Of a stretch of 64,000 bases of DNA, positions 32,668-56,712 are shown piece after piece. The DNA lies in assembly GCA_016874755.1 (NCBI GenBank), contig VGTH01000001.1, positions 62,001 to 126,000 of the forward strand, in the 5' to 3' direction. A program made the position numbers and the translations under genes. Source of the DNA: Deltaproteobacteria bacterium. Its GTDB lineage: Bacteria; Desulfobacterota; Binatia; UBA9968. The notes under the pieces are model-generated. The model was not told the origin of the DNA, did not search any database, and saw only the letters and a program-made list of their open reading frames with translations. The first letter of the stretch is position 1, and each line of letters begins with the position of its first letter.

Positions 32668-32845
32668 TGATAGCTCACGGATTTCCCCGAGAGCTCAGGA
32701 ACGGGCGATTGATTGCCCTGGGGATTTTGGCGATCATGGTTCAAGAGACGACATTGACCCCCGCAGCCTGGTTAGATCGAGCGGGCACCACGGTTTCCAT
32801 TGCTTGCGCGATGCAACGCGGCCAAACTAAAAGGAGGGTGGGAAG

Positions 32846-39116: not shown

Positions 39117-39133
39117 TTGCAAACAACTTGCAA
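39117..39133. promoter_or_regulatory. 17-bp metal-regulator box 1 (Zur-type candidate)
   Basis: TTGCAAACAACTTGCAA, two TTGCAA half-sites spaced by 5 nt. It lies in the divergent spacer between the PacL-like/P-ATPase genes and ZIP transporter 1. On the minus strand TTGCAA (39133-39128), 17 nt and TTTTAT could be the promoter of the ATPase genes, so bound protein would cover the -35. Matches at 40885, 47765 and 47864. Confidence 0.6.
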
Positions 39134-40357: not shown

Positions 40358-40765
40358 TCAATGCTGGCGGGCCGCGCGCCGCGTAGACTTGACCGAGGCG
40401 GGACAAATGGGACAGCGGCCATAGATTACGAGATCGTGGTGCTCGGCGTGAAAACCGTTGGGCAAGTGCTTGTCGAAATCGAATACGCAGCCTTCCAACT
40501 CAAAGACCTTCTGGCACTGACGGCAGCGGAAGTGATGGTGATGGGTCTTGCCCGCGGGTTCGTAGTACGGGTTCTCTCCGGGAATTTGCACCGGGGTGAG
40601 CCACTTTTCGTCGACCATTCCTTTGATTGCCCGATAAACCGTGGCGATGCCGAGGGCCGGTAAGATTTTCTGGCCGGCTTCAAGAACGTCTTGCACGCTC
40701 AAAGGCCGGTCAGCGGCTTTGAAAACCAATTCAATGGCGTGGCGTTGGCGGGTGTTGCGATCCAT
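40358..40765 (-). CDS. Fur-family metalloregulator 1 (Zur-like)
   Basis: About 135 residues from ATG 40765. The winged-helix part (NTRQRHAIELVF, GIATVYRAIKGM) is followed by a THHHHFRC metal site and two CxxC zinc motifs, CRQC and CPIC. This is the Fur/Zur/PerR layout. TATAAT at 40777-40772 is only 6 nt before the ATG and no Shine-Dalgarno is seen, so the mRNA may be leaderless. The setting between two ZIP genes suggests it is the zinc regulator for the 17-bp boxes, though a second Fur homologue lies at 47.3 kb. Confidence 0.88.
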   Translation of the reverse strand: MDRNTRQRHAIELVFKAADRPLSVQDVLEAGQKILPALGIATVYRAIKGMVDEKWLTPVQIPGENPYYEPAGKTHHHHFRCRQCQKVFELEGCVFDFDKHLPNGFHAEHHDLVIYGRCPICPASVKSTRRAARQH

Positions 40766-40884
40766 CTCATCATTATACGGAAGCGGGATAATTTGAAAAC
40801 CCATCGCGGTTTTCGCGCGCGGCAGATTCGACTGTCCGCAAAAATTAAAAATTGGTGCTTGACAGAAATCCCGGTGTTTGATAA

Positions 40885-41149: not shown

Positions 41150-42037
41150 ATGGAGATTTGGATTTTTACTTTGGCGAGTGCGGCACTGGTCAGCGCGGTG
41201 TCGCTGGTCGGCGGAGTCGGTCTGCTCCTGCGCGAAGAGTTTTTGCGCAAGATCGTGACCGTGCTCGTCGGCCTGGCCGTCGGCGTGCTGCTGGGCGATG
41301 TGTTTATTCATCTTTTGCCCGAGTCGCTGAGCGAGATTCAGTCGCCGCGTTTGGTGTCCGCTCTGATTTTGCTCGGCATCTTCTTATTTTTCGCGCTGGA
41401 AAAATTCGTCAAGTGGCAGCATCACCATGTGGTCAGTCAGCAAGACTGCGATCTGGGCGCGCGATCGTGCGCGCACATGTGCCTGGTGGGCGACGCGGTG
41501 CACAACTTCACCGATGGCATGATCATCGCGTCGAGCTTCCTGGTGAGTCCGGTGGTCGGCTTGACCACGACCGTGGCCGTCATCGCCCATGAGATTCCCC
41601 AGGAGCTCAGCGACGTCGGTGTGCTGTTTTACGGCGGCTACTCGACGCGGCGCGCGGTCTGGCTCAATTATCTTTGTTCGTTGACCGTCATCCCCGGAGC
41701 GTTGCTGACGCTGCTGTTGAGCGGCTGGATCGATGGCGTTGCGGTCTATCTTCTGCCAATCGCTGCCGGTGGCTTTATCTACATCGCCGCTTCGGATCTG
41801 ATTCCGCAGCTGCAGCACAAATCGCCGCTGCGCATCGAGTTTGCCCAGACGGCCACCATGGCGGTCGGTGTTTTGTTGATGGCCGGCGTGATTCTGCTCG
41901 AAGAGCGGCTGGAGCAACACGCGAAGCTGGCCGATGAAGCGGTTCTTGCGGCACCCCGAGGACCGCAGGTCACCGGGGCCATGGACGACGCTGCGTGGGC
42001 GAGCGGATCTGCCGCTAGGAACGACAATGGGATTTGA
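41150..42037 (+). CDS. ZIP-family metal transporter 2
   Basis: 295 residues with eight hydrophobic helices. Metal-site motifs are AVHNFTDGMIIASSF and AHEIPQELSDVGVL, very close to canonical ZIP zinc transporters. The cytosolic loop has WQHHHVVSQQDC, and the extended hydrophilic C-terminus of about 40 residues is unusual. It begins after a long structured leader and overlaps the next small gene by 11 nt. Likely zinc import. Confidence 0.92.
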   Translation: MEIWIFTLASAALVSAVSLVGGVGLLLREEFLRKIVTVLVGLAVGVLLGDVFIHLLPESLSEIQSPRLVSALILLGIFLFFALEKFVKWQHHHVVSQQDCDLGARSCAHMCLVGDAVHNFTDGMIIASSFLVSPVVGLTTTVAVIAHEIPQELSDVGVLFYGGYSTRRAVWLNYLCSLTVIPGALLTLLLSGWIDGVAVYLLPIAAGGFIYIAASDLIPQLQHKSPLRIEFAQTATMAVGVLLMAGVILLEERLEQHAKLADEAVLAAPRGPQVTGAMDDAAWASGSAARNDNGI

Positions 42038-42302
42038 AATTTTGCAGTCGCGCGGGCTGGCCAATCCGGCGCACACTCAGCGCATTAAACAATGGGTCAT
42101 TGAAACCTTCGAGTTAGGCGAAGATGTTTCGGTGTTGGTCACCGAGCTGCAATGCAGCGAGCCCGGCTGCCCGCCGCTGGAAACTGTCATCGCGATCATG
42201 GGCGCGGACAAGACCAAGAAACAGCACAAGCTGCATAAACCGCTGGCCGAGGTTACGCCAGCGGACATCGCCGAGCTCAAAGACGGCAAGCCGCTGCATT
42301 GA
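42027..42302 (+). CDS. Small conserved-looking protein with CxxxxCPPxE motif
   Basis: 91 residues from ATG 42027, overlapping the end of ZIP 2. It has LVTELQCSEPGCPPLETVIA, a later KQHKLHKPLAEVTPADIAEL and no signal peptide, so it is cytosolic. I do not recognise a named family. The two cysteines with PPLE and the basic HKLHKP stretch could form a metal or anion site. The translational overlap with a zinc transporter and the following permease argues for a role in metal handling. Confidence 0.75.
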   Translation: MGFEILQSRGLANPAHTQRIKQWVIETFELGEDVSVLVTELQCSEPGCPPLETVIAIMGADKTKKQHKLHKPLAEVTPADIAELKDGKPLH

Positions 42303-42326
42303 TTTTTACACATAAGGGGATCGTGG

Positions 42327-43349
42327 GTGGACACATTCTTGGAGACGATAAAGTCATTTCTCGCCGCGCCGGATAAACCCTTCGCCGATGTCGGCAAATG
42401 GATAGGCGCTCTATTGACCGCGTGGATGCCGGCGATGCCCGTCGAGCTTTGGGGCGTGACTTTCGACATCAAGGCTATTACAGCCTATTGGATCTACGAT
42501 GCTTTCAAGATCGTCGCCTTAGTCGCGTTCACCAGCTACTTCATGTCCGTGCTGCGCCAGTCGATGCCGCGGGCGCTGCTCGATCGTTGGATGAAAGCGG
42601 ATGGCCTCGGCGGCGCCGTGGCGGGCGGTCTGTTCGGGGTGGTGACACCGGTTTGCTCGTGCACCATCGTGCCGCTGTACCAGGGCTTGCTCCGTTCCGG
42701 CGCCTCGACGCGCGCCAGCGCGGCGTATCTAATCACTGGCTGCGGTGTCAACGAGTTCGCCATTTATGTTCTCTTGATTGTCGGTGGTTTGAAAGCCACG
42801 GCGATCTACGTTGGCTTCGGGTTCGCTTCCGCAATCGCATTTTCCTGGTATGCCGGGCGCATGGGCTTCGATGCCGAACGCATTCGCGCCGCTTCCTGCA
42901 GCGGCAGCCTGCGCCTCGATAGGCAGCTGGGCAACCGTTTCGTGGTCGCCTTCGATGAGTCGCTCAGCGTCCTGCGGCGCATGTGGCTGCCGCTCGTGAT
43001 CGCCGGCCTGCTTGCCGCTGTGCTCGTGCCGCTAAACAAAACCCCGGTGGGCATTCTGATTGCCAACGCTGCCACCGACTGGTGGTGGCTTGGCCCCATA
43101 CTCGCCGCTTTGCTCGCCATCCCTCTCGATATGAACGCGGCGATCATGCAGCCCTTCATGATCCCGCTAATGCGCGCGGTGCCGATGGGGACGGCCTTGA
43201 CTTTCATGGCGGGCGCGACGTTTAGCAGCATTCCCGAGATTGCGCTGCTCAAGACCCTCGCTGGCGCGCGCACGACGGCGGTTTTTGTCACCGTGCTTTT
43301 CGTTTATCTCAGCACAATCGGGATGGTGGTGAATCTGGTGCAGCCATAG
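42327..43349 (+). CDS. COG0701/PF03773-type permease
   Basis: 340 residues from GTG 42327 (AAGGGGA upstream) with about eight to ten transmembrane helices. TPVCSCTIVPLYQGLLRSGA is the hallmark of this permease family, which includes ArsP organoarsenical exporters and putative Cu/Zn exporters. The CSC in the first repeat is a likely metal or metalloid site. It stands between a ZIP gene and COG0523 GTPases, so zinc movement is the working guess. The direction of transport is not known. Confidence 0.85.
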   Translation: MDTFLETIKSFLAAPDKPFADVGKWIGALLTAWMPAMPVELWGVTFDIKAITAYWIYDAFKIVALVAFTSYFMSVLRQSMPRALLDRWMKADGLGGAVAGGLFGVVTPVCSCTIVPLYQGLLRSGASTRASAAYLITGCGVNEFAIYVLLIVGGLKATAIYVGFGFASAIAFSWYAGRMGFDAERIRAASCSGSLRLDRQLGNRFVVAFDESLSVLRRMWLPLVIAGLLAAVLVPLNKTPVGILIANAATDWWWLGPILAALLAIPLDMNAAIMQPFMIPLMRAVPMGTALTFMAGATFSSIPEIALLKTLAGARTTAVFVTVLFVYLSTIGMVVNLVQP

Positions 43350-43360
43350 GCGAGGCAGGC

Positions 43361-44836
43361 ATGGCGAAAAAGAACACAACCACGGGCAAGAGCCGGGCGA
43401 CGAAGAAGCGCAAGCCGAGCGCCACGAAGCCGCGCACGCCGGTGTACGTGCTGACCGGGTTTCTCGGCTCTGGCAAGACCACTCTGCTCAATCATTTTCT
43501 GGCGCAGACCCGGCACTTGAAAATCGCCGTGCTGGAAAACGAATTCGGCGCCGTCAGCATCGATACCGAGCTGATCATCGGCGCAAAAGAAGAGATCATG
43601 GAGATCAAGAACGGCTGCATGTGCTGCACGGTGCGGCGCGACCTGATCCGGGTCTTGCGCCGTTTGATCAAGCAAGGCCGCCCCTATGACGCCATTGTGC
43701 TGGAAACCACCGGCATCGCCAATCCGAGTCCCATCGCGCAGACTTTCATGGCGCTAAAAGATCTGTGGACGAACTACGACCTCAAAGGCATCGTCACCGT
43801 GGTCGATGCCAAACATGTGCGCGCCCAGGTAAAATCCGAAACCATCGCGCAGGACCAGATCGCTTTTGCCGACCTGCTGGTGCTGAACAAAGCCGACCTG
43901 GTGAGCGCGCAGGAGTTGGCTGAGGTGACCGAGTTGCTGCGCCGCGTCAATAGCGACGCGGTCATTCGCCCGACGACCATGGCCCAGCTCGACGCTGAAG
44001 AGCTATTGGCGCTCCACGCTTTCAAGCCAGCGCGTGGCTTGAAAGCGGATGCTGGGTTCAATCAGCCCGACTATCCGTTCAAGTGGGTCGGCGCCTATCG
44101 TTTCGAGCCCGGGAGCTATCGCGTCGAATGGCATGCCAGCGGCGCGCCGCACAGCAATGAGCTGGTCTGGCTGATGCCGATGGTCGAGCCAACCGACAGC
44201 GACGTGCAGAAGAGTCTGCCCTTGGCGGTAAAAACCTTTTTCGAACCGGAAGTGAATTTCGCTTGCGGCGAAACCATCGAGGTCGATCGCTTCGTGTGGA
44301 ACACGCCCCTTGAGGAAAATCGCAGCGAGTTTGGCATTCATATTTTGCAGCCCGGTTACTACGCGGTTTTTACCCAGCATCCGCCACGGTCCGTGTCGGT
44401 GACCGGATCGCAGGGCGTAATCGAGCCGGTTTACCAGCGCGCCTGGGAGTCGCGCTACGCCGAAGACGAGTCGCTGACATCGGTCGCGATTTCGCTGGGC
44501 GGCACGTTAAGCCAAGAGAAAGTTAGAGAGTACTTCACTTGGGCGCTCTACGGCGACGAAGAGCATCGCACAGTGCTTAGAATGAAGGGCATTTTGAGCA
44601 TCGCTGGGCGCGACGAGAAGTTCGTCTTTCAGCAAGTTAACACGGTTTCTAACTCCGGGTTCATCAATGAGACCTGGGGTGAGCGGCCGCGCGTCAATCA
44701 TTTCGTCTTGATCGGCCGCGGTCTCGACCGCGGCGAGCTGACCAAGAGATTCGCCGAATGTTTGATCGGCGATTGGGCGACGTCGCGTCCCACGCAGGAA
44801 GAGGAATTGCGAGAGGGCGTCCAAGCCGGGGCGTGA
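43361..44836 (+). CDS. COG0523 (CobW/ZNG1-like) GTPase metallochaperone 1
   Basis: 491 residues. Walker [10 protein letters not shown] is at 33-41, the metal motif CMCC at residues 86-89 and ETTGIANP follows; a CobW C-terminal domain occupies the second half. COG0523 GTPases bind zinc at CxCC and deliver it to client enzymes under starvation. The N-terminal 25 residues are Lys/Arg-rich. It is followed by a close paralogue 27 nt downstream. The client is not evident. Confidence 0.93.
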   Translation: MAKKNTTTGKSRATKKRKPSATKPRTPVYVLTGFLGSGKTTLLNHFLAQTRHLKIAVLENEFGAVSIDTELIIGAKEEIMEIKNGCMCCTVRRDLIRVLRRLIKQGRPYDAIVLETTGIANPSPIAQTFMALKDLWTNYDLKGIVTVVDAKHVRAQVKSETIAQDQIAFADLLVLNKADLVSAQELAEVTELLRRVNSDAVIRPTTMAQLDAEELLALHAFKPARGLKADAGFNQPDYPFKWVGAYRFEPGSYRVEWHASGAPHSNELVWLMPMVEPTDSDVQKSLPLAVKTFFEPEVNFACGETIEVDRFVWNTPLEENRSEFGIHILQPGYYAVFTQHPPRSVSVTGSQGVIEPVYQRAWESRYAEDESLTSVAISLGGTLSQEKVREYFTWALYGDEEHRTVLRMKGILSIAGRDEKFVFQQVNTVSNSGFINETWGERPRVNHFVLIGRGLDRGELTKRFAECLIGDWATSRPTQEEELREGVQAGA

Positions 44837-44863
44837 CGATGAAAGATCATGACGGAGGACAAG

Positions 44864-46219
44864 ATGGCAGTTGAATTCGAAACACCGCAGCGCGTGCCGG
44901 TCACGGTGTTGACCGGGTTTCTTGGCTCGGGCAAGACGACGCTACTAAACCGAATTCTCACCGAGAATCATGGCAAGCGGATTGCCGTGATCGAAAATGA
45001 GTTCGGCGAAGTCGGCGTCGACCAGGAGTTGGTGATTGGCGCCGAAGAAGAAATCTTCGAGATGAACAACGGCTGCATCTGCTGCACGGTGCGCGGCGAT
45101 CTGATCCGGATTCTCGGCAACTTGATGAAGCGGCGCGAACGCTTCGACTACATCATGGTCGAAACGACCGGGTTGGCCGACCCGGGCCCGGTGGCGCAGA
45201 CCTTTTTTGTCGATGATGAAATGCAGGCCAAGTTGATGCTCGATGGCGTTGTCACGCTGATCGACGCCAAGCACATCGCGCAGCACATTGACGACAGCTC
45301 GGAGGCGCGGGAACAGATCGCCTTTGCCGACGTGATTCTCTTGAACAAGACCGATCTGGTTTCGCCCGACGTGCTCGACAAGCTCGAAGCGCGGATTCGC
45401 GGCATGAACTCTGCGGCCAAGGTTTATCGGACCAAGGATGCGATCGTCGACATGAACAAAGTGCTCAACGTCGGCGGCTTCAACCTCGATCGCGCCCTCG
45501 AGGTGGACCCCAAGTTCATGGAGCCGGAGTATCCGTTCGAGTGGGGCGGCATCTTTACACTAGAAGCGGGGAACTATGAGCTGCTCCTCAAAGAAGGGCC
45601 CGATCCGGCGATAAACGTTGTTCTTCTACCGGCAGCGGAAGCCAACGGCGAAGCGTTGAAAGAGCGCGAGATGGACGCGGTGTTGTTGTTTTCGGATCAA
45701 GAGACCGTGCTTGAGTCCGGCGCGATGCTGCAGCCCGAAAAGAAACTATTTCAGCTCAAGCTCGCGCCGAGAGAAAGCCGCTATACGATCAAAATCGAGC
45801 AGCGCGGTCACTACGCGCTATTTACCCAGCACATGCCCAGCGAGTTTCAGATGGAGCTGCGCGCGCCGGAGCTGATTGTGCAGCCGGTGCTCGGCCGTGA
45901 GTACAAACCTGATCATGTGCACAACGAAGAGATTACCTCGGTGGGTATCGAAGCGCCGGGCGATCTCGACGGCAAAAAATTCAACGACTGGATGCGCGGC
46001 ATCTTGACGGAGCAGGGGACGGACATTTTCCGGATGAAAGGCGTGCTGAGCATCAGGGGCGAAGCCAATCGGTTCGTATTTCAGGGCGTGCACATGCTGT
46101 TTGACGCCAAGCAGGAGCGGCCCTGGGGCGCTGCGGCGCGGCGCAACTCCCTGATCTTCATCGGTCGCAAGCTCAACCGCCAGCAATTAAACGAGGGGTT
46201 CCGTGCCTGCCTTGCTTAA
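44864..46219 (+). CDS. COG0523 (CobW/ZNG1-like) GTPase metallochaperone 2
   Basis: 451 residues from ATG 44864, chosen because GGAGG is 6 nt upstream; an ATG at 44849 would add five residues. Walker [10 protein letters not shown] is at 18-26, CICC at 71-74 and [11 protein letters not shown] follows. It shares layout with the preceding gene along the full length, including the long C-terminal domain, so the two arose by tandem duplication. The stop overlaps the GTG start of the WD40 gene by 17 nt. Confidence 0.93.
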
Positions 46220-47270
46220 GAGCAAAGTCAATGTGCTGGCGCCGTCGTGGCAGCACAAAATGGACGATCACGTCGTTTCGGTGGCCTGGTCGCCGGACAG
46301 CCAATGGCTTGCGGCCGCCTGCGTCTCCGGGCCGATTCAGATTTTTTATGTCAAGGACGGCTCCAAGGTGTGCCGTTTGCCTGGCCATGCCTTTGGCACG
46401 ACCATGATCGGCTGGAGTCCCAACGGCAAGCAGTTCGCTAGCGCCGGGCAGGACGGCACGATCAAATACTGGGATATGCTGCAGTGTTCGGAGAGTCATT
46501 CCATGGACGCCGGCGCGGCGTGGGTCGAAGCGATCGCCTGGGGAGCGGCCAATGGCAGCGGCCCGGTGCTCGCCAGCGCGGCGGGAAAAAAATTACGGCT
46601 ATGGACCATGGATGGACAGTTGTTGCGCGAATATCCGGACCATCCGAGCACGATCAGCGACGTTAAGTGGAGGCCGCTGCGCGAGGGAGCGAAGGAAGAG
46701 CGACTTGCTTCGGCGGCCTACGGCCAGCTGGCGTTTTGGCGCGCGCAATCGAACGAGCCGGTTACCAAACTCGAATGGAAGGGGTCTCTCTTGACCATCG
46801 CCTGGAGTCCCGATGGAGCGTTTGTTGCCACCGGCAACCAGGACTCGACCGTGCACTTCTGGTTCGTCAAGAGCGGTGAAGATCTGCAAATGTCCGGCTA
46901 TCCAACCAAGGTCCGAGAGCTGTCATGGGACTTCAACAGCCGCTATCTCGCCACCGGCGGCGGCGACCAGATCACCATCTGGGATTGCAGCGGCAAGGGG
47001 CCGGCGGACACACAACCGATCGTCCTCAAGGGCCACCAAGGCGTGCTGCATTGCTTGGCCTATCAGCCCTACGGGGTTTTGTTGGCGTCGGGCGGCGACG
47101 ATGGGATGGTAGGGTTGTGGAATCCGAAAAAAGACAAGAAGCCCGTCGGCGTTCATGCGCTCGAGGACGCGGTGTCCGAGGTGGTTTGGTCGCCGGACAG
47201 CCGGAGCTTGGCGGTCGCAGGGCACAACGGCGAGGTGAGACTGATACGAGTCGCAAAGGGCGGGGAATAA
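46203..47270 (+). CDS. WD40-repeat protein linked to COG0523 GTPases
   Basis: 355 residues forming about seven WD40 blades, seen as repeated [43 protein letters not shown] and [14 protein letters not shown]. No signal peptide or enzyme motif. The start is GTG 46203, inside the end of the GTPase 2 gene. A beta-propeller encoded in translational overlap with metallochaperones could act as a docking platform between GTPase and client; that is an inference. Confidence 0.9.
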
Positions 47271-47285
47271 AGCATCGACATCGGT

Positions 47286-47747
47286 TTGAAAATCGCCGGC
47301 GAGCGGAGTATTTCAGGGGTCGTGAGCAAGGCTTCGGAAATAATACAGAAGACGCTCGTTGCGGAGGGTTACAGCCAGACCGAGCCGCGGCGCCAAGTGC
47401 TGGAGGTTTTTCTCGACGACGACAAACCGCTGACGCCGGCGGCGGTGCACAAAAAGTTGCACGACCGCAATATCAACCTGGCTTCGGTCTACCGCGCCAT
47501 CGAGTTGTTCTGCCGGCTCGGCGTTTTGACGGAGGTCGATCATGTGGCCGAGGGGCAGCGTTTTGAGCTGTCGGACGAGTATCGCGGCCACCATCATCAC
47601 TTGATCTGCGGCGGCTGCGGCAAGACCGAAGATATCGAAGATTGCGGCATGGAGGATTTTGAAAAACTGATCAGCCAGCGATTTCGTTTTAAGATTACGC
47701 GCCACGAGCTGCGGTTTATCGGTTTGTGCCAGCGCTGCCAGCGCTAA
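47286..47747 (+). CDS. Fur-family metalloregulator 2 (Zur-like)
   Basis: 153 residues from TTG 47286, or 141 from GTG 47322; neither has a good ribosome site. The helix-turn-helix region has SQTEPRRQVLEVF and NINLASVYRAIELF, followed by GHHHHLICGGCG and the final CQRC, giving the usual two CxxC zinc sites and the His cluster. It lies right after the WD40 gene and just before two of the 17-bp boxes. Which of the two Fur homologues senses zinc is open; the other may respond to Fe, Mn or peroxide. Confidence 0.88.
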   Translation: MKIAGERSISGVVSKASEIIQKTLVAEGYSQTEPRRQVLEVFLDDDKPLTPAAVHKKLHDRNINLASVYRAIELFCRLGVLTEVDHVAEGQRFELSDEYRGHHHHLICGGCGKTEDIEDCGMEDFEKLISQRFRFKITRHELRFIGLCQRCQR

Positions 47748-47863: not shown

Positions 47864-47880
47864 CTGCAAATGATTCGCAA
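47864..47880. promoter_or_regulatory. 17-bp metal-regulator box 4 (Zur-type candidate)
   Basis: CTGCAAATGATTCGCAA; on the minus strand it reads TTGCGAATCATTTGCAG, very close to box 2. A further TTGCAA half-site follows at 47882-47887. It is 75 nt upstream of the HAF/PEP-CTERM gene start, placing a surface protein under the same control as the transporters. Confidence 0.55.
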
Positions 47881-47954: not shown

Positions 47955-49151
47955 ATGTTAATTTCCCACGCCCTTGTCGCGAAGCGCGTTTTTTCACTGA
48001 TGAGCGCGGTTCTCGTCGTTGCGCTATGGACCCATTTGGCGCTGGCGCTGAACTACAACGTCACCGACCTGGGCACGCTCGGCGGAACTTTCGGTTTCGC
48101 CAACGGCATCAATAACCACGGCCAGGTGGTCGGTGAAGCGAGCCGGGGCGACGGCGTGGTGCGGCCGGTGCTTTGGCAAAACGGCCAGATCGTTGACCTG
48201 GGCACGCTCGGTGGCAACGACGGCAAGGCCTTCGACATTAATGAGAGCGGCGTGATTGTCGGCCGCGCGGCCAACGCCGCGGGCAGGCTGCGGCCCTTCA
48301 TCATGGACTACGCCAATGGCGGACCGATGCGCGAGATTCCACCGCACGCCGGCGCCGTGCCGGCTGCCAACACCACCGATGGCACCGCCTATGGAATAAA
48401 CTCCAGCGGCGTAGCCGCGGGGCACGGACGCAACGGCGCGGCGCTGTTTCAAGCCTTTACTTCCAACGGCACTTCGACGACGACAGTACCGACGCCAGGC
48501 GGTTCCAACGGCCGCGCTTGGGATATCAACGACGCCGGACAGATCGCCGGCTGGGGACGCGACGCCAGCAATGCCATCGTCGGCTATCGGTGGGACCCGA
48601 TTGCCGGGCTAGTGATCGTCGGCAACCTCGTGCCCGGTGCCGACGTCTTTGGCGTTGGCATCAACAACAGCGGGCACGTCAGCGGCGCGATCCAAAAAGA
48701 CTTCGGCCATCAGACACCGGGCCGCACAGCGATCTCGCGGTCGTTTCTATGGAACGGCTCGACAATCATCGACATCGGCTTGGTCCCCGGCTTCGACGGC
48801 TCGGCAGCAAATCTGATCAACGATCATGGCCAGATCGTCGGCTTAGCCTTCAACTTCGATGTGAACGGCAACGCCATCAACTCGACCGCGTTCCTCCATG
48901 AAAACGGCGTCAACCACAATCTCAACACACTCATCCCCGCCAGCTCCGGTTGGTACCTCACCAATGCCTACGACATCAACGAGCGTGGCCAAATTGTCGG
49001 ACAGGGTGTGTTTCAAGGGCAGACGAGAGCGTTTCTACTAACCCCGCTGAGTGTGCCGGAACCGGCGAATGTGGTTTTGCTCGGCATGGGGCTGATCGCT
49101 TGTGCGTGGCTCGTCAAACGCACCGGCAAACGGCGCCGGGAAATTCTGTAA
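47955..49151 (+). CDS. HAF-repeat extracellular protein with PEP-CTERM sorting signal
   Basis: 398 residues. The signal peptide is about residues 1-33 (ending LALA). The body consists of HAF-type repeats such as VTDLGTLGG, FANGINNHGQVVG and AFDINESGVIVG. The C-terminus VPEPANVVLLGMGLIACA followed by a basic tail is a PEP-CTERM signal, recognised by exosortase (not in this window), so the protein is surface-attached or secreted. GGAGGAGAT precedes the ATG. Its place after Fur 2 and two boxes suggests metal-dependent expression. Confidence 0.9.
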   Translation: MLISHALVAKRVFSLMSAVLVVALWTHLALALNYNVTDLGTLGGTFGFANGINNHGQVVGEASRGDGVVRPVLWQNGQIVDLGTLGGNDGKAFDINESGVIVGRAANAAGRLRPFIMDYANGGPMREIPPHAGAVPAANTTDGTAYGINSSGVAAGHGRNGAALFQAFTSNGTSTTTVPTPGGSNGRAWDINDAGQIAGWGRDASNAIVGYRWDPIAGLVIVGNLVPGADVFGVGINNSGHVSGAIQKDFGHQTPGRTAISRSFLWNGSTIIDIGLVPGFDGSAANLINDHGQIVGLAFNFDVNGNAINSTAFLHENGVNHNLNTLIPASSGWYLTNAYDINERGQIVGQGVFQGQTRAFLLTPLSVPEPANVVLLGMGLIACAWLVKRTGKRRREIL

Positions 49152-49153
49152 AA

Positions 49154-49846
49154 GTGGCTGCCCAAATCGCCATAGCCGTGCCCGGCGCCGAGCGCCTGCC
49201 GCCTGCGGCGCTGCTCGGGCCGCCACCAGAGGCCGAGCCTCCGCAGGCGCTTTGGCTGGCGCCGGACGTGCGGTTGTGCGGCAAATTACTTTTCGACCAG
49301 CAGATCTGGTGCTGGGGCTGCGACGTGGAAAACCCGCACGGCAATCTACTTTTGCGCTACGGCTTCAAGCGGCGCCGGCCGCCCAAAGGACGCGACGGGT
49401 GCAGTCAGTATTCGCTGGCGCTCGAGCGCGGCGAGATCCGGCTTTGGGGTTGGGGCGTCTTGTGCCGCTTGGGCGGACGCGGAATTTTTTTGCGCCGCTA
49501 TCGCTTTTTCCCCCAACTGCGTCCACCGGCGCGCCTGCGAGCCATGGTTTTTCTGCCGAACCAAGTGGCGCCGCTGTGTGACCCTGTGAGCGAGCCAGAG
49601 CAGAAGGCGGCGCGCGCCCGGCTTGCCGAGCTTTGCTGGTGGATCGCCGGCTACGAACGTTGGATCGCCAGGAACTGCGGCAGTGATTATCGCAAAACCG
49701 CTCTCGACAAGTGGCACAAACCGCTCGGTGCCTATGCCCATGAGATGGCGCAGACCTGGCAGGTGATCGCGGCGCGGTGTCAGCCGCCGACGCCCGGGCG
49801 ACGCGCCGGCGCTTTATTAAGTATGCAGAGGAGAACATTCGGATGA
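49154..49846 (+). CDS. Protein of unknown function, Trp/Cys-rich, in the metal island
   Basis: 230 residues from GTG 49154, 2 nt after the previous stop. No signal peptide. It has many Trp, Cys and Arg residues, for example QQIWCWGCDVENPHGN, IRLWGWGVLCRLGGRG, LCWWIAGYERW and a C-terminal Tyr/His region (DKWHKPLGAYAHEM). I recognise no family. Its stop overlaps the start of the HAF fragment (ATGA), so it is translated as part of the HAF/COG0523 transcript. Confidence 0.7.
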   Translation: MAAQIAIAVPGAERLPPAALLGPPPEAEPPQALWLAPDVRLCGKLLFDQQIWCWGCDVENPHGNLLLRYGFKRRRPPKGRDGCSQYSLALERGEIRLWGWGVLCRLGGRGIFLRRYRFFPQLRPPARLRAMVFLPNQVAPLCDPVSEPEQKAARARLAELCWWIAGYERWIARNCGSDYRKTALDKWHKPLGAYAHEMAQTWQVIAARCQPPTPGRRAGALLSMQRRTFG

Positions 49847-50233
49847 AGCAAAGCTCTATAGGTTTACATACGCTCATGTGGGCGGTTTTCTTGGCCATCC
49901 TGTTGGTGGTTTTCAAACTGGCCGAGGCGCAAACCAAGTACAAAGTTAGCGACCTCGGAACCCTGGGCGGCAACCAGAGCTTTGCGCTCGACGTCAACAA
50001 CTCGCGCCAGGTGACCGGCAACTCACGGACGACCAACAGCACGCTGCCGCGAGCACCGCGAGGTGCATGCGTCGTTCTCGTATGACTGCGAGCGTTCGCC
50101 GGCCGGGAGCCGGGTGAGTTTCGGTGTGACCAAAATGTTCCCGGAGATCCACGAGCTCAAAGTGCAAGTGCTGAGCGACGCCAAGCAGAGCGGCGCGACG
50201 ATCAAGAAAGATAGGGGGGATGTCGGCCTATGA
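49843..50233 (+). pseudogene. Chimera: HAF-protein N-terminus joined out of frame to a ZrgA (DUF2796) C-terminus
   Basis: ATG 49843 encodes a signal peptide and the start of a HAF protein (KVSDLGTLGGNQSFALDVNN). Around 50049-50055 (GCGAGCA) the sequence switches, in another frame, to EHREVHASFSYDCERSPAGS and on to [13 protein letters not shown], which ends at 50233. The last 13 residues are identical to the ZrgA-like protein at 33359, whose native sequence has the same GCGAGCA. The join looks like a deletion at a 7-nt microhomology that removed the HAF C-terminus and the ZrgA N-terminus. The HAF frame itself stops at 50085. Confidence 0.8.
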
Positions 50234-51243
50234 ATGCCTTACAAACCCAAACACTAGTTTCGCCCGTTTACGTTATCGGCGGCTTTCTCGGCAGCGGCAA
50301 GACGACGCTGTTGAAGCGGCTGCTCAAGCGCGCGATCGAGCGCGGCGTCAAGCCGGGCGTTTTGATGAACGAGTTCGGCGAAGCCGACGTCGACGGCGCG
50401 TCCCTGTGCGACGGCGATCGCGACGACGATATCGAGCTCAAAGCGATTCTCAACGGCTGCATGTGCTGTGATTTATCCGGCACCGTCGATCAAACGCTGC
50501 GCCATTTGCTGGAGGAAGTTAAAGGCGCGCCGGTGTTCATCGAGACCACCGGCCTTGCCTCCACCGGCCAGGTGCTCGACAGCGTGCGCGAGTCGCTCGC
50601 CAAGTCCGAGCCGGGAAAAGCGAAAGGACGCTTGGCGTCCTCGGTGGTGGTCGTCGACACGCCGCGCTTCGAGGCGGTTGCCACCGCCTGGTCGGAAGGC
50701 ATCAATCACCTGCGCCATGTCGATACAGTGATCCTTAACAAGATGGACGGCGCGGACGGCCAAACAGCCGAGCAGGTCGAGCGGCGTGTGCGGCAGGCGA
50801 ATCCCGATGCCAATATAGTCCGCGCAACCTTCGCTGACATCGCGCCAGAAGCAATTACGGAAAGCATCGCGCGCGCCGCGCAGACGACGGCGCCGGGCGA
50901 GGCGACGGCCGACTCAACGGCGGGCTTTCGCAGTTTGACCGTCCGCATTCTCTACCCCATCGATGTCGAGAAACTGAAGGATCTGCTGGGCCGCTACCGC
51001 GCGTCGATCGTGCGCGCCAAGGGCTTTGTGCGCACGACCACGGAGCGGGGCATCCAAGAAATCCAATGGGTGCCCGGCGCGTTGACCGTTACGCCTTATC
51101 GCACTGAAAAGCGCGTCACCGCCCATCTTGTCGTCATCGGCAGGCGCGTGCCGTGGAATCGCTTTTTCGAGCAGCTCGACAAAGCGGTGCCGACGCCGAA
51201 AAAACAACGCAGCAAGTCAGCCAGGCCAAAAAAGAAGCGATGA
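50230..51243 (+). CDS. COG0523 (CobW/ZNG1-like) GTPase metallochaperone 3
   Basis: 337 residues, shorter than copies 1 and 2 and from another subgroup. Walker [11 protein letters not shown] is at 17-26, CMCC at 77-80 in [10 protein letters not shown] and ETTGLAS follows. The C-terminal 20 residues are Lys/Arg-rich. The start overlaps the stop of the truncated ZrgA fragment (ATGA), which suggests that an intact zrgA copy originally preceded it. It probably delivers zinc to a specific client or stores it during starvation. Confidence 0.92.
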
Positions 51244-51590
51244 AGCAAAGGACAACAATGAAACCGATCGTTTTGTTATCGGGGGTTTTTTTTGCCGTCG
51301 TCAATGACCTCGGCCACGTTGTGGGCTATGACGGTGCCGGCGCAGGCTTCCTGCGGATCAACGACAAGTTCTCTCCCTTCACTGTCCCCGGCGGGGTCGT
51401 CACCTTCCCCACGAGCATCAACAATGCTGGGCAAATCGCTGGCTTCGTCTCCTTGGACGGCGTGACGTCGCGGGCATTCCTGGCGACGCCAGTCCCCGAG
51501 CCGGCGTCGGTAGGCCTCATGAGTTTCGGGATTATTGGGCTGGCCGCTTGGCGTTATAGGAAACGCAGGAGCATTAGTTCATGGGTTTAG
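51240..51590 (+). CDS. Short HAF/PEP-CTERM protein, probably internally deleted
   Basis: 116 residues from ATG 51240 (overlapping the GTPase stop as ATGA) or 110 from ATG 51258. A short hydrophobic start ([11 protein letters not shown]) runs directly into HAF-type repeats ([24 protein letters not shown]) and ends with the PEP-CTERM segment [19 protein letters not shown] and a basic tail. Full HAF proteins here are about 400 residues, so most of the body is absent. It may still be exported, but it looks like the product of a deletion, like the chimera upstream. Confidence 0.6.
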
Positions 51591-51772
51591 CACCCGCTGA
51601 AATGCCTGCGGGCGGATTTCATCGCCCTCGAGCTGATACTGCACCGGTGCAGCAGTCTTCCACGAGGCGGCACCTCCCACAGTGGAAGAGCTTGCGCGAG
51701 ATCGGGAAGCGTACCCGAACTATGGCGCGGGTCGGGTCGCTCTATGTATCGATTGAGACATCTTGTCATCCG

Positions 51773-51808: not shown

Positions 51809-52108
51809 GTGCATAAACAGAACAGTAAAGAGACGCGCAATTGGGCAGGCGCATTGGTTTGTGTTGCCCTGCTGTTGTTTCTTTTCGTTCTGCCGCTGCA
51901 CGAGCATGCCGCGGAAACGGGCACGCAAAGCAACGAATGCGCCTGCGTGCACGGGCAGCGAATACAGCTCGGTTTGCCCGCGGCCACTGTCAGTTTTGCG
52001 CTGGTGGCGCGGTTCTCTGCGGTTGCCGCAGTGCCGGCGTGCCGGCAAGTTTCCCGCAGTCTATTCTCCCAGGGCGTGCGCGCGCCGCCCGCTGTGCTCG
52101 CCGCATAG
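51809..52108 (+). CDS. Small membrane/exported protein with LPLHxH and CxC motifs, copy 2
   Basis: 99 residues from GTG 51809. The helix LVCVALLLFLFVLPLH is followed by EHAAET, then ECACVHGQR, a hydrophobic second half and VRAPPAVLA. It is paralogous to the protein at 32341. It is the first gene of the stretch with the outer-membrane barrel and ZnuABC. The family is not recognised; His and Cys residues just outside the membrane suggest a zinc or metal relay role. Confidence 0.65.
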   Translation: MHKQNSKETRNWAGALVCVALLLFLFVLPLHEHAAETGTQSNECACVHGQRIQLGLPAATVSFALVARFSAVAAVPACRQVSRSLFSQGVRAPPAVLAA

Positions 52109-52197
52109 TTCAGCTCTGTTTTTCTACCATTTTTTGGCGTCTTCCCTTTTTCACGGAAAGAGGAAGGCTATCTATGTTCGTTTGTGGGAGGTTCTCA

Positions 52198-53460
52198 ATG
52201 ATGATTTCATTTTCCGCAGCGCTGCGCCGCGCGGTGCTGCCAGCTTTGTTTGTTTGCACCGTGACAACGCCGGTAACCTATGGAGCGACTTCGGAGCTCG
52301 ATGCATTGCGCTCTTCGTTTAAGGGCATGCAGGAACAGCTGCAAAAAGCTTTACAGCGCATCGAACAGTTAGAAAAAGAAAAGACCGCGACCAGCTCGCG
52401 CGTCGAGCGGGTTGAGAAATCGGTAAAGTCGAGCGCCGGGGCGGCGAGCGCGCTCAATCCGGCCATCGGTGTCGTGATCGACACCACTGCCGAGCACCGC
52501 AGCACAGTGGGCGGCACGTTTAACTTCCGCGCCGCGGAACTCGGTCTGGCTGCGTCCATCGATCCCTACGCGCGTGGTTATGCAATCATCACCGGCAGCC
52601 GCGAAGGTGTCGAAGTCGAAGAAGCGGCGATGGTCACGACCTCTTTGCCGTGGAATCTGCAAGCGCGTGGCGGGCGTTTCTTCGCGGACTTTGGCCGCTT
52701 GGCCAAGTTTCATCCTCATGAATACGCTTTCGTCAACTCACCGCTATCGTTGGAACGTATCGTTGGCGGCGAATCGAAAGCTGATGGCGTCGAGTTGAGT
52801 TACTTATTCTCGACGCCGTTTTTTCTGCGCGCCACGCTCGGCGGCTACAACAAGATCGGCGCCGAAAACGAGCGCCTAGACGACAGCAAGTCGCGCTCGT
52901 GGAGCCGCTTTACTTACCTGGCGCGCTTGAATACCTATGCCGATTTGACCGACAACCACAATCTGGAGCTCGGCACGAGCATGGCTTACACGCCGTCGGT
53001 GCGGCTGGTGGACATCGGTGGCAGCACGCGCAACTTGGTGGGGCTCGACCTCACTTACCGTTATCAGCCGCTGGGTCGGACGACGGATCAGAGTGTGACC
53101 TGGGGCAACGAGCTTTTCGTCAATAGCGAGCGGCGCGCGAAAACTTACGACGATGGACGTGTTGTCGGTCGGCGCCGCAATGCCTTTGGCGGCTACAGCT
53201 ACGCCGAATGGCAGTTTAACCGGAACTGGGCCACGGGTTTTCTCTTCGACTATGCACCGAGCATCGACAGCCCAGGAAAAAAGACCAAGGGCTACTCGCC
53301 CTTCTTAACCTGGAGCCCGAGCGAGTTTAACCGCCTGCGCTTCCAGTTCACGCATCTCAGTGACATGGTTCGCGAGGAGAAAGCCGAGCGCGGCAATCAA
53401 GTATTTCTGCAATGGACGACCGTGCTCGGAAGCCATACGCATGGTTTCCGGACCCGTTGA
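52198..53460 (+). CDS. Outer-membrane beta-barrel protein with periplasmic coiled coil, candidate zinc porin
   Basis: About 420 residues from ATG 52198 (GGGAGG 6 nt upstream). The signal peptide is followed by a short coiled coil, LDALRSSFKGMQEQLQKAL, and then alternating amphipathic strands with aromatic girdle residues, for example SWSRFTYLARLNTYADL and FGGYSYAEWQFNRNW. It lacks a TonB box and plug, so it is porin-like, not a TonB receptor. It directly precedes ZnuABC, which argues for outer-membrane passage of zinc, but no ligand can be read from sequence. Confidence 0.72.
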   Translation: MMISFSAALRRAVLPALFVCTVTTPVTYGATSELDALRSSFKGMQEQLQKALQRIEQLEKEKTATSSRVERVEKSVKSSAGAASALNPAIGVVIDTTAEHRSTVGGTFNFRAAELGLAASIDPYARGYAIITGSREGVEVEEAAMVTTSLPWNLQARGGRFFADFGRLAKFHPHEYAFVNSPLSLERIVGGESKADGVELSYLFSTPFFLRATLGGYNKIGAENERLDDSKSRSWSRFTYLARLNTYADLTDNHNLELGTSMAYTPSVRLVDIGGSTRNLVGLDLTYRYQPLGRTTDQSVTWGNELFVNSERRAKTYDDGRVVGRRRNAFGGYSYAEWQFNRNWATGFLFDYAPSIDSPGKKTKGYSPFLTWSPSEFNRLRFQFTHLSDMVREEKAERGNQVFLQWTTVLGSHTHGFRTR

Positions 53461-53485
53461 GGGCTCGTCCCGGGAGAATATAGCA

Positions 53486-54412
53486 ATGAAAGTGAAACGA
53501 CGAAACTTTATAGTCCTGGCGATGCTGGCGCTCTTGGGCGCCGGCTCGTACGGGAACGCGACGGCCCAGTCGATCCGGGTGATCGCCACGGTGCCGGACT
53601 TGGCGGACATCGCCAAGCAAATCGGCAAAGAGCTGGTCGTCGTGGAGAGCTTGACTAAGGGCGTCGAGTTCATGCACTCGGTGCCGGTGAAGCCAAGCTT
53701 CGTGCCGAAGCTAAATCGCGCTAACATTCTGATCGAAATGGGCCTCGCTTTGGAGCATTCTTGGCTACCGGCCCTGTTGGAGGTAGCCAATAATCCGCGC
53801 ATCCTGGAGGGGCAGCCGGGCAACATCGATTGCTCGAACGGCGTGACGGTGTTGGAGGTGCCGACGAAGATCGATCGCGCCGAAGGCGATGTCCATCCAA
53901 AAGGCAACCCGCACTACAACTTGGATCCGCTCAACGGCAAGATCATCGCGCGCAACATCGCCGACGGATTGTCGCGCAACTTCCCGCAGCACAAGGCGAC
54001 GTTCGAAAAGAACTTGGCCGCTTACCTGGGCGAGCTCGACAAAGCGATTGCCCGCTGGCAGGGGAGCGCCGGGCCGTTGAAGGGAGTGAAGTTTGTCAGC
54101 TACCACGGCGACTGGACCTATTTCGCCAATCGCTACGGTTTGCAGCAGGTGGGCACCATCGAAGTAAAGCCCGGCATCGAGCCGACGCCGAACCATCTAG
54201 TGTCGTTGGTGCAGCGCATGCAGCAGGAAAAAGCCCAGGTGATTATCTACGGGCCGCAGAGCGACCGCTACCCGCGCCAGCTGGCGGGCCAGACCGGCGC
54301 CAGTATCGTGCGCCTGCAAACCAACGCCGGCGCGACGGCGGAAACCGACAGCTACATCAAGTTCATCGACTCTAACCTCAGGAGTTTGCTCTCGGCGCTG
54401 AAAAAGGGCTAA
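53486..54412 (+). CDS. znuA: Zinc/manganese ABC transporter substrate-binding protein (ZnuA family)
   Basis: 308 residues with a signal peptide (about 1-28). It belongs to the cluster 9 metal-binding proteins. Likely ligands are His64 (in FMHSVP), His137/His143 (HPKGNPHYN), His207 (SYHGDW) and an Asp near 253 (YGPQSD). The usual first-ligand motif DPHxYxP is replaced by EFMHSVPVKPS and there is no His-rich loop, so affinity or metal choice may differ from E. coli ZnuA. Confidence 0.88.
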   Translation: MKVKRRNFIVLAMLALLGAGSYGNATAQSIRVIATVPDLADIAKQIGKELVVVESLTKGVEFMHSVPVKPSFVPKLNRANILIEMGLALEHSWLPALLEVANNPRILEGQPGNIDCSNGVTVLEVPTKIDRAEGDVHPKGNPHYNLDPLNGKIIARNIADGLSRNFPQHKATFEKNLAAYLGELDKAIARWQGSAGPLKGVKFVSYHGDWTYFANRYGLQQVGTIEVKPGIEPTPNHLVSLVQRMQQEKAQVIIYGPQSDRYPRQLAGQTGASIVRLQTNAGATAETDSYIKFIDSNLRSLLSALKKG

Positions 54413-54446
54413 AGAGTTGAGCTGTGATGGGCGAATCTCCGTTTTC

Positions 54447-54485
54447 CCAGAGCGGGCGTCTCGATGGTTGAGACGCCCGCTCTGG
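54447..54485. promoter_or_regulatory. Perfect 16-bp hairpin with the znuC start codon in its loop
   Basis: Arms CCAGAGCGGGCGTCTC (54447-54462) and GAGACGCCCGCTCTGG (54470-54485) with the loop GATGGTT, whose ATG is the znuC start. In the mRNA this would bury the region just before and after the start codon. It may attenuate translation or end the znuA transcript. The GC-rich palindrome could also be an inserted REP-type repeat. Confidence 0.7.
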
Positions 54486-55144
54486 TTAGTTTCAGCGATG
54501 CCAGCCTCGGTTACCAAGACGCTGTCATCTTGCAGCAGGTTTCACTGCAGATCCATGCCGGCGATCTGATCGCCATGGCCGGACCGAACGGCTCCGGCAA
54601 GACCACGCTATTTCGCACACTGCTTGGTTTCTTACCCGTTCTCGGCGGTTCGCTTACACGGCGATGCCAGCTGGGGGAATTTGGCTATGTGCCGCAGAGC
54701 GCCGCGCTGGACGCGAGCTTTCCGATCTCGGTGCGTGAGCTGGTTGAGATGGGCAGCTACGGTCGTTTGAAACCGCATGAACGGCTGCCGCGCCACGAAA
54801 AAGCGCGCGTGCGGGAGGTCCTGCGGCAGGTCGGCCTTGAAGCGCTCGCGGAGCGCTTATTTTTTTCTCTTTCGGGCGGCCAGAAGCAGCGCATATTGAT
54901 TGCCCGGGCGCTGATGGTGCAGCCGAAGATTTTGGTCTTGGACGAGCCGCTCGCAGGCGTCGATGTCGAGTCGCGCGAAGCGATCACGGAGCTGCTGTTG
55001 AAGATCAATCGCGACGAGCACAGGGCGATCTTTTTCTCGAGTCACGATCTACGCATGGTGCGCGCCGTGACCAAGCGAGTTCTGCGCATCGACCGCGGCC
55101 GCGCGTGCTGGGAAGAGGGAGCGACGTCCGATCAGCCATGGTAG
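54464..55144 (+). CDS. znuC: Zinc/manganese ABC transporter ATPase (ZnuC family)
   Basis: 226 residues. Walker A is GPNGSGKTT at residues 40-48, the signature LSGGQKQR near 143, Walker B ILVLDEPLAGVD. It is typical of cluster 9 metal importers. The start ATG lies in the loop of a strong hairpin and has no clear Shine-Dalgarno. The stop overlaps the start of the permease gene by 7 nt. Together with ZnuA and ZnuB it imports zinc, or possibly manganese. Confidence 0.9.
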   Translation: MVETPALVSFSDASLGYQDAVILQQVSLQIHAGDLIAMAGPNGSGKTTLFRTLLGFLPVLGGSLTRRCQLGEFGYVPQSAALDASFPISVRELVEMGSYGRLKPHERLPRHEKARVREVLRQVGLEALAERLFFSLSGGQKQRILIARALMVQPKILVLDEPLAGVDVESREAITELLLKINRDEHRAIFFSSHDLRMVRAVTKRVLRIDRGRACWEEGATSDQPW

Positions 55145-56586
55145 GGTTCTTCGAGATCTTCAGTCCATCCTTTTTGCTATTTCCGGCGCTGCTGGGCAGC
55201 GTCATTTTGGCCTTTGTTTGCCCTTTGGTCGGCGCCCACTTGATGTTGCGCCGCCGCGTATTTCTCGGTTTGACCTTGCCGCAAATCGCCGCCTGTGGCG
55301 TGGCGTTTACGTTCTGGATCTATCACAGCATGGGGTACGCGCACGGCAGCGGCGGCGAGCGCTTGTTGGCGATGGCCGGCTCGCTGGCCCTCACACTGGT
55401 CGGCATGGGAATGCTTGCGTATCTCGATCGCCATGCAAGCGGCACCCCCGAAGGCCGCCTTGCGGCCGCGTACGCGCTGGCATCCGCGCTGACGATTCTC
55501 TTCATCGTTTTCAATCCGCAGGGCGAATTGGAAATTCTCAACTTGCTCAAAGGCGAAGTGATTACGCTATCGAGCGGGGAACTGAAATTGCTCGCGCTGA
55601 TCTATGGCATCGTTTATCTCTGTTTGGTGCTGTTCCGGCGCGAGTTTTTGCTCAATTCGTTCGATCGCGATCTGTCGTTCTTGCTAACCGGCGGCAGCAC
55701 GCAATGGAACTTTTGGCTTTACGTGCTGTGCGGCTTTTGCATTGCCATTGGCGTGATCATGGCCGGGCCGATGTTGATTTTTGGCTTTATGGTGCTGCCG
55801 CCGCTGGCAGCGCGCGCCCTGGCGCGCGGCATGAATCGTTTTTTCACCCTATCTTGTCTGATCGGCGTGTTTGTGGCCGTGGTCGGGTTTTACCTGTCGG
55901 TGCGGCTCGATCTCCCGTTGGGCCCGACCAACGTGGCCTTCGGCTGTGTGCTGATTTTTGTGATTTATGGAGTGCAAGTCATGATACGTAAATTTCGCGG
56001 TGGCGTCGTGTCGCTGCTGTTTGGGTTCGTTTTCGTTGGCGGTTGCGCGACGCAGTCGTCGCAGCATTCGTTAGATTGGCAGAGCCTGCGGCAAAGCCCG
56101 GTTTGGCTAGCATCGGTGCGCAACGCGACGCCGAGCGATCTGCGTTTGCCGAGCACCAATCCTTTGCGGTCGATCGCCGAGTGGGCGGGCAAAGTCTCGC
56201 CGGACTATCGCCCAACGGTGCCGGATATTCTGCGCGGCACGCTGCGCAAGGAGTTGGAGCAGCGTAAGGTCACCGTCTCCTTGCCCGAGGAGCGGGACAT
56301 GCGCATGCAGTCTTTTCCCTTTGACGCTTCCAGCGCCGCGGCCAACGCGCGCAGCACGGACTTGAGCGGCTGGCTCTTGCTTTCCGAGATTCGCCGCTGG
56401 CAAACCGATGGCCGCAGCCCGCTGCGGGCACTGGTCGAATTCAAGCTTGTGCGCATCGACAACGGTGCGGTGGCTTGGGAACGGCAAGTCAGCAAGACGG
56501 TGCCCATCGCCGGGTCGGGACGGCTCGACGAAGTAACGACCGATGGCGTGCGGGAAATTCTGCGCGATGTCCTTGGCGGCTCTTGA
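55138..56586 (+). CDS. znuB: ZnuB-type permease fused in frame to a lipoprotein domain
   Basis: 482 codons without a stop. Residues 1-281 are a cluster 9 metal permease (ABC-3 family) with eight or more helices, including QIAACGVAFTFW and MAGPMLIFGFMVLPPLAARA. From Met282 (ATG 55981) the sequence is a textbook lipoprotein start: a basic MIRKFRGG, a hydrophobic stretch and lipobox VGGC with Cys303, followed by about 180 hydrophilic residues. GGAG stands 8 nt before ATG 55981, so the lipoprotein could also be made separately. The lipoprotein domain is unrecognised. Confidence 0.85.
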   Translation: MVGFFEIFSPSFLLFPALLGSVILAFVCPLVGAHLMLRRRVFLGLTLPQIAACGVAFTFWIYHSMGYAHGSGGERLLAMAGSLALTLVGMGMLAYLDRHASGTPEGRLAAAYALASALTILFIVFNPQGELEILNLLKGEVITLSSGELKLLALIYGIVYLCLVLFRREFLLNSFDRDLSFLLTGGSTQWNFWLYVLCGFCIAIGVIMAGPMLIFGFMVLPPLAARALARGMNRFFTLSCLIGVFVAVVGFYLSVRLDLPLGPTNVAFGCVLIFVIYGVQVMIRKFRGGVVSLLFGFVFVGGCATQSSQHSLDWQSLRQSPVWLASVRNATPSDLRLPSTNPLRSIAEWAGKVSPDYRPTVPDILRGTLRKELEQRKVTVSLPEERDMRMQSFPFDASSAAANARSTDLSGWLLLSEIRRWQTDGRSPLRALVEFKLVRIDNGAVAWERQVSKTVPIAGSGRLDEVTTDGVREILRDVLGGS

Positions 56587-56598
56587 TGGGCCGGAAGA

Positions 56599-56680
56599 CT
56601 CACCACAGAGGGCCAGCGCGGCACAGCCGCAACCAAAGAAAAGAATAGCCGCAAAAAACGCCAAAGGCGCAAAAAGAATT
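56599..56680. repeat. Dispersed intergenic repeat, copy 6 (degenerate)
   Basis: CTCACCACAGAGGG, then ATAGCCGCAAAAAACGCCAAAGGCGCAAAAAG. Only the left-arm type units of the family are clear; the right arm is lost or replaced by the adjacent hairpin at 56686. Confidence 0.6.
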
Positions 56681-56685
56681 TCAAA

Positions 56686-56712
56686 GTAGGGCGGGTTTTA
56701 AACCCGCCCTAC
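56686..56712. repeat. Palindromic REP-like element
   Basis: GTAGGGCGGGTTT, one T, AAACCCGCCCTAC: a 13-bp perfect inverted repeat after the znuB fusion gene. It may help end the ZnuABC transcript. The promoter of the amidohydrolase gene should lie in the 130 bp after it. Confidence 0.7.

Follow-up and report, generated by a model that had tools for sequence, protein, structure and literature searches.

We analysed a 64,000-nt window of the genome of a Deltaproteobacteria bacterium (Binatia, UBA9968; GCA_016874755.1, contig VGTH01000001.1, contig positions 62,001-126,000; coordinates below are those of the window), in which genes for HAF-repeat proteins with PEP-CTERM tails lie among genes for metal uptake and its regulation. 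Our preferred explanation, which we hold with about even confidence, is that these genes belong to a partly decayed, metal-controlled operon within a metal-gene island, and that the one intact HAF protein, HAF1, is an accessory protein of the envelope, exported and co-expressed with the zinc genes, and not a zinc scavenger. The argument draws on the gene junctions, on palindromic boxes upstream of HAF1, and on related genomes in which the same site is found without the island.

The HAF block and its metal boxes

Between positions 47955 and 51590, all on the plus strand, HAF1 is followed by the gene of a 230-aa protein (HYP), the stub HAF2, a 3' fragment of zrgA, a COG0523 GTPase gene and the remnant HAF3. 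ZrgA (PF10986) is a component of zinc-uptake operons, and COG0523 GTPases are linked to zinc. The block and the regulators and boxes that precede it are as follows (N-terminal signal sequences, here and below, were judged by eye):

39118-39132, no strand: box with one mismatch, before the second ZIP gene (39172-39891)
40358-40804, minus strand: FUR-family regulator 2 (FUR2); PF01475, 61.8 bits
40886-40900, no strand: exact box, between FUR2 and the run ZIP-ArsP-COG0523-COG0523-WD40-FUR1
47286-47747, plus strand: FUR-family regulator 1 (FUR1); PF01475, 79.7 bits
47766-47780, no strand: exact box 1, upstream of HAF1
47865-47879, no strand: exact box 2, upstream of HAF1
47955-49151, plus strand: HAF1, intact and predicted to be exported, HAF-repeat protein of 398 aa with a PEP-CTERM-like tail; TIGR02913, 92.5 bits (cut-off 22.65)
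49154-49846, plus strand: HYP, 230-aa protein; no Pfam or NCBIfam match
49843-50085, plus strand: HAF2 stub, consisting of a signal sequence followed by a single HAF unit; TIGR02913, 21.0 bits (under the cut-off of 22.65)
50046-50233, plus strand: 3' fragment of zrgA, the second zrgA copy; PF10986 positions 102-159 of 161, 45.2 bits
50230-51243, plus strand: COG0523 GTPase, third copy (COG0523c); PF02492, 127.8 bits, and PF07683, 43.4 bits
51240-51590, plus strand: HAF3 remnant, in which a short start resembling a signal sequence is fused in frame to a HAF unit and a PEP-CTERM tail

TIGR02913 matches three stretches of HAF1, and HAF1 is the only gene that it matches at E ≤ 0.001 in the 5.56-Mb genome. 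The PEP-CTERM motif is plain by eye in both HAF1 and the HAF3 remnant. In HAF1 (VPEPANVV...RRR) it scores slightly below the cut-offs of PF07589 (17.0 versus 20.7 bits) and TIGR02595 (15.7 versus 16 bits); the HAF3 remnant is above that of PF07589 (28.4 bits) and below that of TIGR02913 (20.3 bits against 22.65). The reading frame of the HAF2 stub enters ZrgA-homologous DNA at about position 50046; the last third of zrgA is fused to the stub, and a whole ZrgA domain with a signal sequence is absent here. Over 185 bp, this fragment shares 72% DNA identity with the 3' end of the complete zrgA of the window (33735-33918). COG0523c has both the nucleotide-binding and the C-terminal CobW domains according to Pfam. 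The Pfam and NCBIfam matches, together with our reading of the junctions, bear out an earlier, sequence-only reading of this DNA, which had described one full and two truncated HAF/PEP-CTERM genes interleaved with a COG0523 GTPase and a ZrgA fragment. That reading had overlooked HYP, which lies between HAF1 and the HAF2 stub.

The junctions within the block are tight. HYP starts 2 bp after the HAF1 stop codon, and ATGA overlaps join the HAF2 start to the HYP stop, the GTPase start to the stop of the zrgA fragment, and the HAF3 start to the GTPase stop. ATGA-type overlaps are typical of evolved operons, and we therefore argue that the HAF genes were formerly an established part of the transcription unit. 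From the 2-bp and ATGA junctions we also infer one transcript running from the boxes through the HAF3 remnant. The first 11 bases of HAF2 and HAF3 are identical, and for this reason the two look like paralogous copies that have lost different parts.

The box, TGCRAAYNRTTYGCA, has a 7-1-7 form that we take to be like that of FUR-family sites. It occurs in the window as three exact copies (at 40886, 47766 and 47865) and one copy with a single mismatch (39118); shuffled sequences hold 0.28 matches on average, and none of 100 shuffles reaches four. Genome-wide (5.56 Mb) there are three exact boxes, all of them in the zinc-gene cluster, and sites with at most one mismatch number 20, against 5 for a backwards control pattern. 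Twelve of the 17 one-mismatch sites were examined, and eight of these are inside long open reading frames. The two metal boxes of the sequence-only reading thus both exist; their position is just upstream of the block, and not inside it as had been stated. Metal-controlled expression of the HAF1 block is likely, as inferred from these features.

Recurrence, sorting and zinc binding

The sequence-only reading had held that the link with zinc would be refuted if HAF genes did not recur beside COG0523 or ZIP genes in other genomes. HAF (TIGR02913) is present in 42 of 395 genomes of the phylum and in 4 of 25 genomes of the family, the source genome being included in both counts. Our survey comprises 50 loci from 42 other genomes (730 kb), of which 44 come from 39 of the 41 other phylum genomes and six from the three other family genomes; it covers the matches listed, and G311 and G349, with weak HAF matches that lack a placement, are left out. 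At least 19 kb is available for 22 of the 50 loci, and most of the others stop at contig ends, so some neighbourhoods are cut short. Searched by tblastn with the window proteins and by profiles built here, none of the 50 loci has COG0523, FUR, ZIP, ZnuB or ZrgA near HAF. The result is the same for plasmids, with no zinc operon near HAF at any of 10 loci (the best-matching place in each of 10 records out of 13), and, conversely, no HAF1-like sequence is found at 13 ZrgA loci from 12 other genomes. The expected recurrence is therefore missing from the sample surveyed, which is not all genomes.

The profile search detects all six positive-control loci, although these had also supplied seeds and so are not independent; at a locus that had not been used (L043), the COG0523 gene is detected. 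Fourteen control regions show no COG0523, FUR, ZIP, ZnuA, ZnuB or ZrgA. ZnuC, a general ABC ATPase, matches 5 of the 50 HAF loci versus 1 of the 14 controls and was not counted; WD40 matches none. A single HAF locus (L123) has a gene for a metal-binding protein; it is encoded on the other strand at a distance of about 2.5 kb, beyond an ATPase gene, and was not counted as an operon. In G348, the sole other genome listed with both HAF and ZrgA, the two are separated by about 1.43 Mb.

Sorting of the HAF proteins to the surface by exosortase, a further claim of the sequence-only reading, finds no support in the gene content. No match to exosortase PF09721 is detected even at E ≤ 10 in this 99.55% complete genome, and TIGR04178 gives two matches below its cut-off (best E 0.078). 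An exosortase gene could nevertheless be absent from the assembly despite that completeness. Within the family, exosortase is above cut-off in one of 25 genomes (G015), leaving 24 without. PF07589 finds eight PEP-CTERM tails above its cut-off genome-wide, one of which is the HAF3 remnant and one of which lies in a reading frame that contains a stop, and two tails below it. Inspection by eye assigns four of these eight tails and both of the lower-scoring ones to full-length open reading frames with a signal-like start. A literature search found nothing on PEP-CTERM proteins without exosortase and nothing joining the HAF repeat with PEP-CTERM.

The closest known zinc-binding protein of this kind is ZepA (All3515) of Anabaena. 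According to the published account, this PEP-CTERM exoprotein is controlled by Zur and binds zinc, has the predicted zinc site H-X2-9-H-F/Y-H and is encoded near genes for COG0523, FUR, ZnuA and ZupT (PMC10957091). A motif scan finds no H-X2-9-H-F/Y-H in HAF1. Histidine makes up 2.4% of HAF1 between signal and tail (10 of 398 residues overall, within the range of HAF proteins of similar length), one close histidine pair is present (315 and 321), and the whole protein has one cysteine. The suggestion that the HAF protein captures zinc is thus not upheld for HAF1. By sequence, HAF1 has no match in the PDB.

HAF and HYP are the two kinds of protein in the block that are not known in their own right from zinc uptake. 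The zinc link of HYP is stronger than that of HAF: of the two, only HYP's recurs, in one further genome. Among the genomes of 391 relatives, the HYP family is found in the source genome and in G495, a genome of the same class that is 80% complete. The G495 relative (L170, 9250-10014) has 35% identity to HYP and shares with it WCWG...GNLLL.YG; its gene directly follows OMP-ZnuA-ZnuC-ZnuB-ZIP, and no HAF or COG0523 match occurs in 19.5 kb. HYP has no match among plasmids, and its three sequence matches in the PDB (E 0.54 or worse) were taken as chance. Single-sequence structure models were too poor for use (mean pLDDT 41 for HAF1 and 39 for HYP).

The ECF-znu site and its neighbouring genes

The HAF block is at one end of a stretch of about 20 kb that separates a gene for an extracytoplasmic function (ECF) sigma factor from the znu operon. 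The features that delimit and fill this stretch, in addition to those given above, are:

30359-31018, minus strand: ECF sigma factor gene, the native gene that flanks the island on the left; TIGR02937, 118.6 bits
33359-33922, plus strand: complete zrgA; PF10986, 121.9 bits; set neighbours PF11736, PF00005 and PF02687 (DUF3299-zrgA-ABC-FtsX)
41150-47270, plus strand: ZIP transporter, ArsP-type permease, two COG0523 GTPases and WD40 protein (Pfam)
51646-51693, plus strand: putative IS91-type transposase scrap, 16 residues (48 bp), on the znu side of the island
51809-56586, plus strand: SHORT-OMP-ZnuA-ZnuC-ZnuB operon, native right flank, conserved in seven relatives; ZnuA, ZnuC and ZnuB by Pfam

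In six relatives from the family (G011, G023, G006, G024, G022 and G005), the ECF sigma gene is divergent from the SHORT-OMP-znuACB operon, and the distance from ECF to the SHORT (or OMP) homologue is 306-1251 bp, versus 20,791 bp in the window. G011, which is of the same genus, also has the arrangement without the island. The seventh relative (G017) has the znu operon and no ECF match. In the window, the DUF3299-zrgA-ABC-FtsX set, a heavy-metal P-type ATPase, two ZIP, two FUR, ArsP, three COG0523, WD40 and the HAF block all lie between ECF and znu. Comparison of these sequences shows the ECF-to-znu stretch as a metal-gene island that would have been acquired or accreted at that site. Because the relatives show the site without the island, the interleaving of HAF and zinc genes is best read as accretion and decay within the island and not as a conserved arrangement.

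The putative IS91-type transposase scrap is 98% identical in DNA to a copy on contig 54 and 90% identical to one on contig 6. The contig 6 copy matches PF04986 (Y2_Tnp, 30.1 bits), and a longer open copy is present on contig 10. Against a Y2_Tnp transposase the scrap aligns over 16 residues at 87.5% identity (E 3e-4), a very short alignment. No tRNA that could serve as an attachment site is within the window, and an Rfam scan of the window gives nothing above gathering scores.

COG0523c is matched at E ≤ 1e-20 in 12 of the 24 other family genomes, none at more than 33% identity. This lack of a close relative, together with the occurrence of HYP in one other genome among the 391, favours the island explanation. 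Searches with the COG0523 protein give one distant match among genome contigs (26%, Paenibacillus) and one Staphylococcus record among plasmids (27%).

Several further features of the region were observed. The gene of the WD40 protein (46203-47270) has a COG0523 gene on one side and a FUR gene on the other. The heavy-metal P-type ATPase (36411-38645; TIGR01525, 565 bits) places export and uptake genes together in an uptake island. SHORT (51809-52108) is a short, signal-bearing protein with Cys and His residues, encoded before OMP-znu and found by tblastn in five of the seven relatives; a SHORT-like reading frame seems, by eye, to lie ahead of the zrgA set at around 32342-32668. The element TTAGACG-N16-GTTTAC (31205-31233), which is upstream of the ECF gene, is conserved in six relatives (L056, L057, L058, L060, L061 and L062); in the reverse direction, GTAAAC-N16-CGTCTAA, it resembles an ECF promoter, divergent from znu. 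At about 56589-56700 there is a short REP-like element with copies of about 76-95% similarity at many places in the source and related genomes.

Alternative explanations and known systems

A less likely alternative is that the HAF genes are pure passengers, cargo of mobile DNA that landed among zinc genes and has no metal role. It would account for the lack of recurrence at the 50 genome and 10 plasmid loci, for the breakage of two of the three HAF copies and for the transposase scrap nearby, and five of the 10 plasmid HAF genes have annotated transposases or recombinases at less than 8 kb, while a sixth has an integrase and a transposase close by. However, HAF1 is intact, it immediately follows two boxes and a gap of just 2 bp separates it from the gene after it, and both HAF remnants overlap the upstream gene by ATGA, which is unexpected for a random landing. 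We consider it distinctly unlikely that these are exosortase-sorted surface proteins that capture zinc in the manner of ZepA, as the sequence-only reading had it. The ZepA account does show that PEP-CTERM exoproteins under Zur control can be encoded near COG0523 and FUR genes (PMC10957091), and HAF1 is under boxes, but no exosortase is recognisable, the ZepA motif is absent, no recurrence is seen in the genomes surveyed and histidines are few. An assembly artefact, with collapsed or chimeric sequence as the source of the truncated HAF and zrgA pieces, is very improbable. The assembly is indeed a draft of 101 contigs with breakpoints inside repeat-bearing genes; the ATGA overlaps, however, are kept at the junctions, the HAF3 remnant is open in frame, the island flanks are native, and the 185 bp shared by the zrgA copies are 28% divergent, so that the copies were not confused.

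Other points weigh against the partly decayed, metal-controlled operon that we favour. Neither FUR1 nor FUR2 reaches an NCBIfam equivalog cut-off, for Zur or any other member, and zinc rather than iron or manganese is accordingly argued from gene content. No box with two or fewer mismatches precedes the SHORT-OMP-znu operon in the window or in the seven relatives, which weakens the box as the zinc box of this lineage. The zinc regulon of the sequence-only reading therefore stands as the placement of a metal-controlled unit, by its boxes and its 2-bp and ATGA junctions, and the zinc label is drawn from the gene content. The absence of the island refers to the ECF-znu site, as its left half (31-41 kb) was not sought elsewhere in the relatives' genomes. 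The island, whose left edge is approximate, may have formed in several steps, it is seen in one draft assembly (3.1% contamination), and the transposase scrap is as short as 48 bp.

Under the decayed-operon explanation, the island (about 20 kb) would have been acquired or accreted between the ECF sigma gene and the native znu operon, and its last unit would run from the two Fur/Zur-type boxes through HAF1, HYP, the HAF2 stub, the zrgA fragment and the COG0523 GTPase to the HAF3 remnant. Under metal scarcity, either FUR1 or FUR2 would leave the boxes and the unit would be expressed. HAF1 would be exported by its signal sequence and, as no exosortase is recognisable, its tail is probably just an inner-membrane anchor. 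HAF2, HAF3 and the second zrgA would be decay products. Should the metal control prove real, the PEP-CTERM exoproteins linked to metal starvation include a type other than ZepA. A bolder proposal, which we regard as unlikely, is that HAF PEP-CTERM proteins are a second, non-ZepA kind exported under metal starvation, interleaved with zinc genes in this lineage through evolved translational overlaps and working in a genome that has no exosortase, with a tail that either anchors the protein in the inner membrane or is cut by some other protease, and that HYP is a further new zinc-operon family. The locus itself appears as a zinc-gene island with partly decayed operons, whose insertion site is seen island-free in relatives. 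The most reusable leads are the HYP family beside znuACB and ZIP, and PEP-CTERM proteins without a recognisable exosortase.

Like ZepA, HAF1 has a signal sequence as judged by eye, a PEP-CTERM-like tail, an upstream metal-regulator palindrome (two exact boxes, the sensed metal being suggested by gene content) and a neighbourhood of COG0523, FUR and ZnuA/ZupT-type genes. It differs in having HAF repeats instead of the ZepA body (398 aa versus a mature protein of about 27 kDa), in the lack of the histidine motif and of a recognisable exosortase in the genome, and in being non-recurrent in the genomes surveyed (PMC10957091 for ZepA). With respect to HAF-repeat proteins (TIGR02913; DUF3466, PF11949), HAF1 is far above the cut-off and some others also have a PEP-CTERM tail, whereas the other 50 genome and 10 plasmid loci are without a zinc operon. 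ZrgA operons are represented in the same island by the complete DUF3299-zrgA-ABC-FtsX set, and DUF3299 is present at 12 of the 13 ZrgA loci elsewhere; the copy beside the HAF genes, in contrast, is the stub-fused last third. Finally, the three COG0523 copies beside FUR, ZIP and Znu genes are in keeping with the zinc-linked GTPases, although the third is distant from the copies in other family genomes (no more than 33% identity among matches at E ≤ 1e-20).

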